A stretch of 33,225 nt of DNA, from positions 257,508 through 290,732 of the forward strand of contig NZ_LHCI01000106.1 in the NCBI RefSeq assembly GCF_001280255.1, read 5' to 3'. Below the pieces are notes generated by a model. That model did not search any database, had not been told where the DNA came from, and worked only from the letters and a program-made list of their open reading frames with translations. The stretch is from Thermus aquaticus. GTDB taxonomy: Bacteria; Deinococcota; Deinococci; Deinococcales; Thermaceae. The translations under genes were made by a program, and so were the position numbers. Every line of letters starts with the position of its first letter. Within the stretch, counting starts at the first letter, position 1. Below are positions 16,955 through 20,378 of the stretch, piece by piece.

Positions 16955-19213
16955 GTGCGGGACGTCCTCGAGGTCCTGGAGTTCCCCAAGGTGAAGGCCC
17001 TCCTGGCAACGAGGGCCAAGACCCCCTTGGGGCAGGAGCTGGCCCTCGGCCTGGCTCCCCTTTCCCGGGAAGAGGCGGAAAGGCGCCACGGCCTCACCCA
17101 GGAGGCCCTCAGCTACCCCTACGCCCTCCCCGAGGCCGGGGCCTTGAAGGCGGCCTGGGAGCGGGCCAAGGCGGGAGGGAGGCTTTCCGGCCCCGAGCTC
17201 CTTCGGGCGGCCCAGGCCCTCGAGGAGGCCATGGCCCTCAAGGAGGAGCTCCTTCCCCTGCAAAACGCCCTGAGCCAGGTGGCGGCGGGCATCGGGGACC
17301 ACGGGGCCTTCCTCCTTCGGGTCAGGAAGGCCCTGGACGAGGAGGGGGCGGTGCGGGACGAGGCCAGCCCCCGCCTCAAGCAGATCCGCCAGGAACTCCA
17401 CCCCCTGCGCCAGGAGATCCTGAACCGCCTTTACGCCCTCATGGACCGGCACAAGGAGGCCGTCCAGGACCGCTTCGTCACCCTTAGGCGGGAGCGCTAC
17501 TGCATCCCGGTGCGGGCCGGGATGGCCCATAAGATCCCGGGCCTCCTCCTGGACGAGTCCGAGTCCGGGGCCACCCTCTTCATAGAGCCCCTCTCAGTGG
17601 TCAAGCTCAACAACCGCCTCTACGCCCTTAGGCTCCAGGAGGAGGAGGAGGTGAACCGGATCCTCAGGGAACTCTCCCAGCGCCTGGCCGAGGACCCCGG
17701 GGTGCCGGGGACCCTCGAGGCCCTGGCCCTTCTGGATCTAGTCCAGGCCCAGGCCGCCTTGAGCAGGGACCTGGGGCTTTCCCGCCCCCGGTTCGGGGAG
17801 GGCTACGCCCTGGAGGAGGCCTTCCACCCCCTCATAGAGAACCCGGTCAAGAACAGCTTCGCCCTGGACGAAACCCACCGCCTCCTCCTCATCTCCGGCC
17901 CCAACATGGGGGGCAAGACGGCCCTCCTCAAGACCCTGGGCCTCGCCGTCCTCATGGCCCAGTCCGGCCTCTTCGTGGCCGCTAAGAGGGCCACCCTGGC
18001 CTGGCCCGACCGGGTCTACGCCGACATCGGCGACGAGCAGTCCCTTCAGGAAAGCCTCTCCACCTTCGCCGGGCATCTGAAGCGCCTCAAGGAGATGCTG
18101 GAAGGGGCCACGGAGAGGAGCCTGGTCCTCATAGACGAGCTGGGAAGCGGCACCGACCCCGAGGAGGGGGCGGCCCTCTCCCAGGCCATCCTCGAGGCCC
18201 TCCTGGCCCGCGGGGTCAAGGGGATGGTCACCACCCACCTCTCCCCCCTCAAGGCCTTCGCCCAGGGGCGGGAGGGGATCATGAACGCCTCCATGCGCTT
18301 TGACCTGGCCACCCTGCGCCCCACCTACGAGCTGGTCCTGGGGGTGCCGGGGCGGAGCTACGCCCTGGCCATCGCCCGGAGGCTGGCCCTGCCCGAGGCG
18401 GTCCTGAGGCGGGCCGAGGCCCTCCTCCCCGAGGGAGGGCGGCTGGAAGCCCTTCTGGAGAAGCTAGAGGCCGAGCGCCTGGCTCTCATGGAGGAAAAGC
18501 GCCACCTGCAGAAAGCCCTGGAGGAGGCCGAGGCCCTGAAGCGGGAGCTTCTGGCCCGGGAGAAGGGCTTCGCCGAGGAGCGGCAAAGGCGCCTGAAGGC
18601 CCTCGAGGAGGAGGTGCGTCAGCGCCTTCTCCAGGTGGAGGCCGAAATCAAGGCCATCAGGGAGAAGGCCAGGACCGAGGGCAAGCGGGACGCCCTGAGG
18701 GAGCTCATGGCCCTGAAGGAGCGCTACGCCAAGAAGGCCCCGCCGCCCCCGCCCCCCCCGGGCCTCACCCCGGGCCAAGCGGTGGAGGTGCCCTCCTTGG
18801 GGAAGCGGGGCCGGCTCCTGGAGATCCGGGGAGAGGAAGCCCTGGTCCAGGTAGGCCCCCTAAAGATGAGCCTGAAGGCCGCCGAGCTCAAGCCCCTCCA
18901 GGAGGAGGCTACCCCCAAGGCCCTCCCCCTCAGGCCCCGCCGGGAGGTGAAGGAGGTGGACCTCCGGGGCCTCACCGTGGAGGAGGCCCTTCTGGAAGTG
19001 GATAGCGCCCTGGAGGAGGCCCGCGCCCTGGGCCTCCCCACCCTCCGCCTCCTCCACGGCAAGGGCACGGGCGCCTTACGCCAGGCCATCCGGGAGGTTT
19101 TGCGCCGGGACAAACGGGTGGAGGCCTTCGCCGACGCGCCCCCCAACGAGGGAGGGCACGGGGTCACGGTGGTGGTCCTGAAGGGGGGAGCCTCCCCTAG
19201 CGCAAAAGGGTGA
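16955..19213 (+). CDS. mutS2: MutS2, recombination-suppressing ATPase/endonuclease
   Basis: This 752-residue MutS paralogue lacks the mismatch-recognition domain. An N-terminal core and lever region (about 1-270) leads to the ATPase with Walker A GPNMGGKT at 315-322 and Walker B LVLIDE with D394-E395, then a Gly-Thr-Asp signature. A long charged coiled coil (about 490-590) follows, with a proline run (APPPPPPPPG) and a KOW-like segment. The C-terminal Smr nuclease domain starts near 667 (VDLRG at 668-672) and has HGKG at 701-704. Family members bind branched DNA and suppress homologous recombination; in some species they also act on collided ribosomes. The GTG start has a leaderless -10. The end overlaps the next gene on the opposite strand by 17 bp. 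Confidence 0.95.
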   Translation: MRDVLEVLEFPKVKALLATRAKTPLGQELALGLAPLSREEAERRHGLTQEALSYPYALPEAGALKAAWERAKAGGRLSGPELLRAAQALEEAMALKEELLPLQNALSQVAAGIGDHGAFLLRVRKALDEEGAVRDEASPRLKQIRQELHPLRQEILNRLYALMDRHKEAVQDRFVTLRRERYCIPVRAGMAHKIPGLLLDESESGATLFIEPLSVVKLNNRLYALRLQEEEEVNRILRELSQRLAEDPGVPGTLEALALLDLVQAQAALSRDLGLSRPRFGEGYALEEAFHPLIENPVKNSFALDETHRLLLISGPNMGGKTALLKTLGLAVLMAQSGLFVAAKRATLAWPDRVYADIGDEQSLQESLSTFAGHLKRLKEMLEGATERSLVLIDELGSGTDPEEGAALSQAILEALLARGVKGMVTTHLSPLKAFAQGREGIMNASMRFDLATLRPTYELVLGVPGRSYALAIARRLALPEAVLRRAEALLPEGGRLEALLEKLEAERLALMEEKRHLQKALEEAEALKRELLAREKGFAEERQRRLKALEEEVRQRLLQVEAEIKAIREKARTEGKRDALRELMALKERYAKKAPPPPPPPGLTPGQAVEVPSLGKRGRLLEIRGEEALVQVGPLKMSLKAAELKPLQEEATPKALPLRPRREVKEVDLRGLTVEEALLEVDSALEEARALGLPTLRLLHGKGTGALRQAIREVLRRDKRVEAFADAPPNEGGHGVTVVVLKGGASPSAKG

Positions 19214-19916
19214 GGACTCCCAGAACCACGGCGATGGCCGTGAAGTAGAGCATGGCCTTGTTGAAGGCGGTGTTGATCTCCGCCTTCACCTCCTGGCGGA
19301 GGCCGGCCATCTCCTGGCGGAGGCCTGAGATCTCGGCCCGCACCTCCTGGCGCAGGCCGTTGAACTTCTCCTCCATCTCCTGGCGGAAGCCGGCCATTTC
19401 CGCCCTCATCTCCTGGCGAAGCCCGTCCATCCCTTGGCGAAGACCGGCGATCTCCGCCCTCACTTCCTGGCGGAGCCCGTCCATCTCCTGGCGGAGGCCC
19501 GCAATCTCGGCCCGCACCTCCTGGCGCAGACCATTGAACCTCTCCTCCATCTCCTGGCGAAGCCCGGAGATCTCCGCCTTCACCTCCTGGCGGAGCCCGT
19601 CCATCTCCTGGCGGAGGCCCGCAATCTCGGCCCGCACCTCCTGGCGCAGACCATTGAACCTCTCCTCCATCTCCTGGCGAAGCCCGGAGATCTCCGCCTT
19701 CACCTCCTGGCGCAGGCCGTTGAACTTCTCCTCCATCCCCTGGCGGAGGCCTGAGATCTCGGCCCGCACCTCCTGGCGGAGGCTGGCCATCTCCGCCTTC
19801 ACCTCCTGGCGGAGAAGGTCCATCCTCGCCTCCAGGGCGGACACCCGGTCGGGGAGGACGGCCATCACCCCTTCCACGATGCCCTCTAGCTTGTAGAGGC
19901 GTTCTTCTACGGTCAT
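19197..19916 (-). CDS. Repetitive coiled-coil protein with C-terminal membrane anchor
   Basis: This 239-residue protein is built almost wholly from repeats of about 11 residues of the form GLRQE-V/M-xAEI-S/A or EE-K/R-FN. They are arranged in 40-residue super-repeats (two nearly identical copies in the middle) and predict one long continuous coiled coil (about 25-215). The last 20 residues (MLYFTAIAVVLGVLTLLR) form a membrane helix, so the rod would project from the inner face of the membrane. The N-terminal MTVEERLYKLEGIVEGVM is non-repetitive. Such proteins are loosely like DUF1640/CCDC90-type or scaffold-like proteins, but I cannot assign a function. A -10 TATCCT lies 9 nt before the ATG. 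The 3' end overlaps mutS2 by 17 bp. Confidence 0.8.
   Translation of the reverse strand: MTVEERLYKLEGIVEGVMAVLPDRVSALEARMDLLRQEVKAEMASLRQEVRAEISGLRQGMEEKFNGLRQEVKAEISGLRQEMEERFNGLRQEVRAEIAGLRQEMDGLRQEVKAEISGLRQEMEERFNGLRQEVRAEIAGLRQEMDGLRQEVRAEIAGLRQGMDGLRQEMRAEMAGFRQEMEEKFNGLRQEVRAEISGLRQEMAGLRQEVKAEINTAFNKAMLYFTAIAVVLGVLTLLR
19466..19712 (-). repeat. 120-bp tandem duplication inside the coiled-coil gene
   Basis: Bases 19466-19592 are identical to 19586-19712, that is 127 bp at an offset of exactly 120 bp (40 codons). The flanking units are the same motif but more diverged. The lack of even silent differences points to a recent duplication or active gene conversion. Shorter 33-bp units recur throughout the gene. 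Confidence 0.9.
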
Positions 19917-19925
19917 CTGGCTCTC

Positions 19926-19931
19926 AGGATA
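19926..19931 (-). promoter_or_regulatory. -10 element of the coiled-coil gene
   Basis: On the minus strand TATCCT ends 9 nt before the ATG at 19916. Confidence 0.45.
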
Positions 19932-19948
19932 GCAGACCCGCCCGCACC

Positions 19949-20350
19949 TTAAAGAGGCCTTCCCTCCACTGCAGCGATGCGGGCCCGCACCTCCTGGGGA
20001 AGAGGGGCAGGCCTTCCTCCCTCCAGCCAGACCTGGACCGTCTTCCCCCGGGCTGCCTCCTCCCCCGCCGCCAGAACCAGGTACTCCATGTCAAAGCTGG
20101 AGCGCCCCAGGCGGACCACCCGCACCCCCACCTCCACCGGGTCCTGCAGGAGGATGGGTCTCAGGAAGTCCACCTCGGCCCGAGCCAGGATGAAGTGCCC
20201 CTTGCCCACCCAGTCCGGCTCCAACCGGGAGAAGTAAGCCGCGCGGGCCACCTCCAGATAGGTGAGGTAGACGGCGTTGTTCACGTGCCCCAGAGCGTCC
20301 AGGTCGCGGAAGCGCACCTGGATGGGCACCACCACGGGAAAGCCTTCCAC
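19949..20350 (-). CDS. Acyl-CoA thioesterase, 4HBT hotdog family
   Basis: This protein has a single hotdog domain with the 4HBT-type signature RFRDLDALGHVNNAVYL. The aspartate next to the ALGHVNN segment is the likely catalytic residue, and a helix (YLEVARAAYF) follows. Relatives (YbgC/FadM type) hydrolyse acyl-CoA thioesters as tetramers in the cytoplasm. I chose the GTG at 20350 (133 residues) because -10 TAAGCT ends 8 nt before it and the domain then starts at the usual distance. An ATG at 20368 would add six residues and has only a poor GGGAG directly adjacent. It is divergent from the oligopeptidase gene. The substrate chain length is unknown. Confidence 0.85.
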   Translation of the reverse strand: MEGFPVVVPIQVRFRDLDALGHVNNAVYLTYLEVARAAYFSRLEPDWVGKGHFILARAEVDFLRPILLQDPVEVGVRVVRLGRSSFDMEYLVLAAGEEAARGKTVQVWLEGGRPAPLPQEVRARIAAVEGRPL

Positions 20351-20378
20351 GGGGAAAAAGCTTACCATCTCCCGGCCT

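Follow-up and report, generated by a model that had tools for sequence, protein, structure and literature searches.

Repeat proteins of variable length are best known from pathogens, where the usual explanation is surface exposure and immunity. A helical stalk with a C-terminal anchor is also typical of DUF1640/CCDC90-like proteins (PF07798), and Adlakha and colleagues reportedly described in 2019 a head-neck-stalk-anchor layout for MCUR1 and CCDC90B. The Bdr proteins of Borrelia combine tandem 11-residue units between conserved ends with a membrane helix and have plasmid-borne copies; passages of two papers describe them as inner-membrane proteins whose function is undiscovered (PMC10016077) and as carriers of KID repeats (PMC4370689). 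Here we analyzed a 33,225-nt stretch of the Thermus aquaticus genome (NZ_LHCI01000106.1, positions 257,508 to 290,732; hereafter the window), which encodes a 239-residue rod protein on the reverse strand (open reading frame with ATG start, 19197–19916), with orthologs at the same site in the Thermus genomes G018, G005, and G013. On the basis of sequence comparison and a predicted structure, we favor with moderate confidence the reading that the protein belongs to a Thermus family of tail-anchored coiled-coil proteins, i.e., membrane-bound spacers or scaffolds that have fixed ends, gain and lose whole units, and are encoded by a mobile gene.

The protein has three parts. Its head (residues 1–34, MT.EERLYKLEGIVEGVMA.LP..., 19815–19916) is conserved, as seen in two alignments and in the proportions of nonsynonymous (pN) and synonymous (pS) differences. 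The rod (residues 35–212, 19281–19814) is built of 11- and 7-residue units, and the C-terminal membrane anchor (residues 217–238, 19203–19268), found by Kyte-Doolittle hydropathy, is conserved among 24 aligned members. The initial annotation had described a rod of about 11-residue repeats. This length indeed prevails, but the rod is not purely built of it, i.e., the 17 spacings between unit starts comprise thirteen 11s and four 7s. Hydrophobic residues recur with a period of 3.64, where the periodogram reached a power of 9.9 compared with at most 2.2 in 500 shuffles. The rod is free of proline and the whole protein free of cysteine and tryptophan. For the single chain, AlphaFold2 predicted one helix from residue 3 to 238 with a mean predicted local distance difference test score of 90.5. 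The last 22 residues before the terminal arginine are hydrophobic, and the best Kyte-Doolittle 19-mer lies at 220–238 (mean 2.06). Structure prediction and hydropathy hence support the proposal, made from the sequence alone, of a long helical rod that ends in a membrane helix at the C-terminus.

In its center, the rod gene contains an exact duplication at an offset of 120 nt. Its existence and offset had been noted before, its length however is 128 nt and not 127 (19465–19592 matching 19585–19712, the longest exact self-match of the gene). The offset corresponds to 40 residues, i.e., 11+11+11+7, and Tandem Repeats Finder reported period 120, 2.5 copies, and 95% matches. When the gene's own synonymous codons were redrawn in 200 shuffles with the protein unchanged, the longest exact run was 25.6 nt on average and 41 nt at most; the protein repeat alone is therefore insufficient to explain the DNA identity. 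The repeat has about 28 silent sites, none of them changed; if the duplication dated from the split from G018, whose MutS2 is the most similar (89%), this would have a probability of about 1e-4. A recent duplication or gene conversion explains this identity. Exact runs of at least 50 nt occurred in five of 27 related copies in the genus (the frameshifted copy G025:C2 was excluded), the longest having 287 nt at a 66-nt offset (copy G025:C12, L039:7402–8058). Given these runs and the allele lengths on plasmids described below, we rejected an assembly artefact as the sole cause; it is unlikely to be the whole story.

Rod length differed between species at the same chromosomal site. The four orthologs beside mutS2 have 239, 144, 156, and 145 residues, and already G018 has only 144 compared with 239 in the window. 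The refuting case considered by the initial annotation, a constant repeat number with accumulated silent changes, thus does not hold at the species level. The G018 ortholog contains an exact repeat of its own (80 nt at a 54-nt offset); because this repeat differs from that of the window, the two rods were probably amplified separately and from different units. At a second site, next to tRNA-Leu(CAG) and between leuC-like and trpS-like genes, eight species had eight lengths (123, 222, 156, 189, 134, 145, 167, and 178 residues). Two of them, G008 and G022, have identical head DNA and are separated by two single 11-residue indels; all their remaining sequence differs by three silent changes and one amino-acid change.

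Length variation was also found within one species. T. thermophilus plasmids carry a rod paralogue between cobS and cobO (L148–L151, L153–L161), and we sampled 13 alleles from 34 Thermus records that matched by DNA. Twelve were intact and had six lengths, i.e., 70, 178, 207, 255, 277, and 299 residues. Four strains from a single district (Murakami, Niigata) had 299, 70, and 255 residues and a frameshift, respectively. The adjoining cobS differed from that of HB8 at 0–14 of 720 positions in 11 of the 12 intact alleles, HB8 itself included; the count of 347 of 720 in the twelfth, HB5018b, is not divergence but a shift, as its cobS lacks 3 nt and the positions were compared without gaps. In T. 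thermophilus HB5018, two different plasmids each contain a cobS-rod-cobO segment (L159, L161). The earlier suggestion that copy number is changing in living populations is thus borne out between species at the same site and, for the plasmid paralogue, among T. thermophilus strains, with the window gene being represented by one genome per species. These alleles show that the number of units differs among strains of one species in this rod family.

Head and anchor, in contrast, stay fixed while the rod changes by whole units. Among the four orthologs at the mutS2 site, pN of head plus anchor was 0–0.04 compared with a pS of 0.04–0.37, and for codons 1–40 the values were 0–0.02 and 0.17–0.21. Together with the eight species at the tRNA-Leu site, this indicates strong purifying selection on both ends. 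Moreover, pS was 0.40 and pN 0.08 among the eight V-type units of the window gene, and therefore the unit pattern is also kept. These values bear on the possibility that the rods are mobile or drifting genes with little cellular function, whose ends are kept for a small role and whose rod is neutral ballast. Dispersed sites, extreme length drift, and the headless, frameshifted, and interrupted copies are what such a gene would show, but selection on both ends and on the unit pattern speaks against it, and we consider it unlikely, if still the foremost alternative to a spacer or scaffold. Some observations weigh against a fast change of length and others against the favored reading. The genomes G010 and G011, identical in mutS2, have rods of equal length in the two copies compared (157/157 and 116/116), and those of G015 and G016 both have 126 residues. 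Two of 27 Thermus genomes are without a match, several copies are interrupted by stops, one of the 13 plasmid alleles is frameshifted (SNM6-6), and the 70-residue form (two of 13 alleles; nine records by span) has no head. A passage of one paper describes nearly all of the plasmid pTT27 as dispensable (PMC13140390). The 7/11 register is retained in every length step; this is no independent evidence of selection, because slippage between like units would preserve it anyway.

The family is multi-copy and dispersed and, as judged from our searches, almost confined to Thermus. Matches were found in 25 of the 27 Thermus genomes. With a profile, 27 of the 111 phylum genomes matched, i.e., those 25 and a single genome from each of two further genera within the same taxonomic family. 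Named genomes, when scanned, yielded 11 loci; ten were from Thermus and one from a metagenome-assembled genome labelled Candidatus Bipolaricaulota (L146), which is possibly a misbinned Thermus contig. We defined as R-type those copies with the head MT.EERLYKLEG.VEG, a rod of 11/7 units, the anchor A(F/L)N..MLY, and an extended −10 element of their own; the window gene has all four. Of 28 R-type copies gathered, 27 were intact, with lengths of 86–247 residues. Their heads and anchors are nearly invariant, and most of alignment columns 1–22 are fully so. In the 27 rods (again without G025:C2), all 250 spacings were 4, 7, 11, 18, or 22, counted with a parsing pattern of our own making, where the 4s arise from pattern matching inside an 11-residue unit. 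A second, E-type paralogue (L063, L097–L111) has a related head (ERLEKLEGIVE...) and anchor and equally variable open frames of 165–423 residues, but consists mostly of 11-residue units with different sequence and occupies a fixed locus near genes for a Wzy_C ligase and LptF/LptG, in most cases immediately downstream of gene e2. The window genome contains two R-type copies as well as a distant copy of the E-type. By title and abstract start, we found no literature on length variation in these proteins, with most subscription journals lying outside the coverage.

A viral origin was considered and rejected, since none of 33 pattern stretches in viral contigs was confirmed. Plasmid and phage sequences gave no match to the 86-residue member at E 1e-3. 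A match to phrog_9415 (E 1.2e-23) is uninformative on origin, and a genus search with the PHROG matches recovers the same rods. Among the tblastn matches listed for phages, most were streptococcal hyaluronidase-type coiled coils of 16–27% identity, which we took as an effect of composition.

R-type copies occur at the mutS2 and tRNA-Leu sites, convergent with a scpA-like gene, near pilin-like genes, and elsewhere; further rod copies lie at cobalamin and Lpt/Wzy genes. Neighbors were named by resemblance unless profile-scanned, the pilin-like genes by resemblance alone, and the scpA-like gene had no Pfam match. A septal or nucleoid-linked role, as once suggested, finds no support here, the scpA-like neighbor being only one of several sites. 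Outside the gene, the sites have nothing obvious in common except about 20 nt upstream of the ATG. In the window, this region holds the extended −10 promoter TGCTATCCT (19926–19934, reverse strand), 9 nt upstream of the ATG and thus at leaderless spacing. The motif TGnTAnnnT, ending 7–13 nt upstream of the ATG, was present in 28 of 28 R-type copies compared with 0.7% of shuffled upstream stretches. Such spacing fits leaderless transcription in Thermus. Sharp edges alone are no proof of a moving cassette, because selection also conserves promoters. Across the 28 loci, no partner gene was conserved beside the R-type copies at different sites. A Uma2 nuclease gene (PF05685, identified by Pfam from one cluster member) is the immediate neighbor in ten of the 28, e.g., at L036:8308–8865, and Uma2 matches lie at 20 places in the window genome; as the ten loci are not independent sites, we claim no function from this linkage.

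At the window site, mutS2 (16955–19213, forward strand; TIGR01069, 732 bits) and the rod gene overlap tail to tail, as initially annotated, and do so by 17 nt (19197–19213). The mutS2 frame extends into the rod gene and has its stop codon there, so that its end is shifted compared with rod-less species; for this reason, the overlap is best explained as a side effect of an insertion into a tail-to-tail junction of mutS2 and a 4HBT thioesterase gene (PF13279), which lies on the far side of the rod (19949–20368, reverse strand) and usually overlaps or abuts the mutS2 stop. We inspected this junction at 27 loci, where the mutS2 end was readable in 21 and the thioesterase stop also in 20, the other seven being judged by coordinates only. 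The two stops overlapped by 4–21 nt in 13 of the 20, were separated by 61–98 nt of other DNA in three, and had the rod between them in four. A 214-residue antisense frame (19252–19896, forward strand) lies opposite the rod gene, because the repeated codons give no stops on the other strand.

The overlap had invited the idea of a functional pairing, with MutS2 restraining recombination between the repeats. The rod is however beside mutS2 in only four of 27 genomes, with other copies at tRNA-Leu, scpA-like, pilin-like, and cobalamin genes, and rod length varies equally at sites away from mutS2. We regard such a pairing as scarcely credible, and the caveat that it might be accidental proved apt: most likely, the two genes became neighbors by a chance insertion. 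In a mutS2 tree, the four rod-bearing genomes did not form one group, and G005 was placed with G026 and G016, both rod-less at this site, with support of 100/100. The anchors of G005 and G013 differ by one silent change (pS 0.04) compared with a mutS2 pS of 0.33. The simplest reading is that the rod region passed from one of these lineages to another; alternatively, it was inserted independently into an identical position or lost in others. Moreover, the rod genes of G015 and G016 (L049, L051) are nearly identical, with a head pS of 0 compared with 0.38 for mutS2, pointing to lateral transfer. Movement of the gene is likely because of the insertion at mutS2 and these copies shared across species.

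We compared the rods with the described systems. For true membership in DUF1640/CCDC90, with an MCUR1-like head, neck, stalk, and anchor, the window protein scored 54.3 bits with PF07798 (cut-off 33.5), the overall layout is similar, with a helical stalk and a C-terminal anchor in both, and there was a weak match to PDB entry 6h9l_A (E 0.0028), a member of this family. The best PF07798 stretch, however, is confined to the rod (residues 67–168), many unrelated coiled coils (apolipoprotein, gp58, SF-assemblin) score alike, and members of 108 and 70 residues fall below the cut-off with 19.2 and 17.8 bits. A passage of one paper gives a β-layer motif for DUF1640, aliphatic-ATK-polar-D/E (PMC4786415). 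With strict and relaxed patterns, [aliphatic]-A-T-K-[polar]-[DE] was absent from the stalk start in 28 of 28 R-type copies; membership fails because of this absence, and we consider it improbable.

Homology to Bdr could be argued from the shared layout of a conserved head, a variable count of 11-residue units, and a C-terminal membrane helix, from tblastn matches of the window protein to 70 Borrelia plasmid records, and from a BLASTP E value of 2e-19 for a Thermus/Borrelia pair. This pairwise match, however, has 18% identity and lies within the rods. The Bdr head model NF040499, which gave 90.4 bits on a Borrelia protein, was not found in two Thermus plasmid alleles (P0002 and the 70-residue allele; E up to 0.01) or among the 25 of 42 window-protein matches listed. 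The Thermus head is hence unrelated by this model, the unit sequence differs, and the window rod contains 7-residue besides 11-residue units. Because the Bdr head was not found, the resemblance appears to be one of layout and not of homology or membership, and common descent seems very improbable.

Some plasmid-borne Thermus paralogues bear the database name apolipoprotein A1/A4/E family protein. We rejected this identity for the window protein, which scored 57.7 bits with PF01442 compared with a gathering score of 90; the name looks like a coiled-coil artefact, and the PDB matches of the protein, mostly to apolipoprotein A-I, reflect composition. The same name probably applies to R-type copies at the PilA-ComZ locus. 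In a published passage on that locus (PMC5529391), the pseudopilins are accompanied by an apolipoprotein, DUF820 nucleases, and a chromosome segregation protein, which are probably R-type copies and their neighbors. This published content, and the fact that copies adjoin pilin-like genes in several species, would fit a competence or type IV pilus factor. No pilin gene adjoins the copies at mutS2, tRNA-Leu, cobalamin, or Lpt/Wzy genes, however, and we hold such a role to be quite improbable.

For the membrane-bound spacer or scaffold that we favor, head and rod would face the cytoplasm, because the protein has a single C-terminal membrane helix and no N-terminal hydrophobic stretch, and the chains would associate in parallel. 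With a helix rise of about 0.148 nm per residue, the 178 rod residues could span about 26 nm at most between inner membrane and head. Length would change when near-identical units of 21 and 33 nt slip or recombine unequally, a mechanism that would automatically preserve both reading frame and coiled-coil register. Most likely, the exact length is non-critical or free to drift. The gene would have moved with its own short promoter into gene-end junctions such as that between mutS2 and the thioesterase gene, probably also by transfer between species. A bolder proposal, which we find doubtful, sees rod length as a heritable, fast-mutating ruler, i.e., a contingency trait by which the spacing of head and inner membrane is reset, on a cassette of an about 20-nt promoter and a leaderless open reading frame that spreads among Thermus gene ends by natural transformation. 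If true, length would be selected and not just tolerated.

The rod family would be a non-pathogenic counterpart to Bdr. The same pattern is seen here in a free-living thermophile, and the protein most likely lies in the cytoplasm, anchored to the membrane; for these reasons, immune evasion would not be why its length varies. T. thermophilus is genetically tractable, and its natural alleles of 70–299 residues at one locus make it directly testable whether rod length matters. The Thermus rods are an unusually clear natural length series in a known kind of protein.

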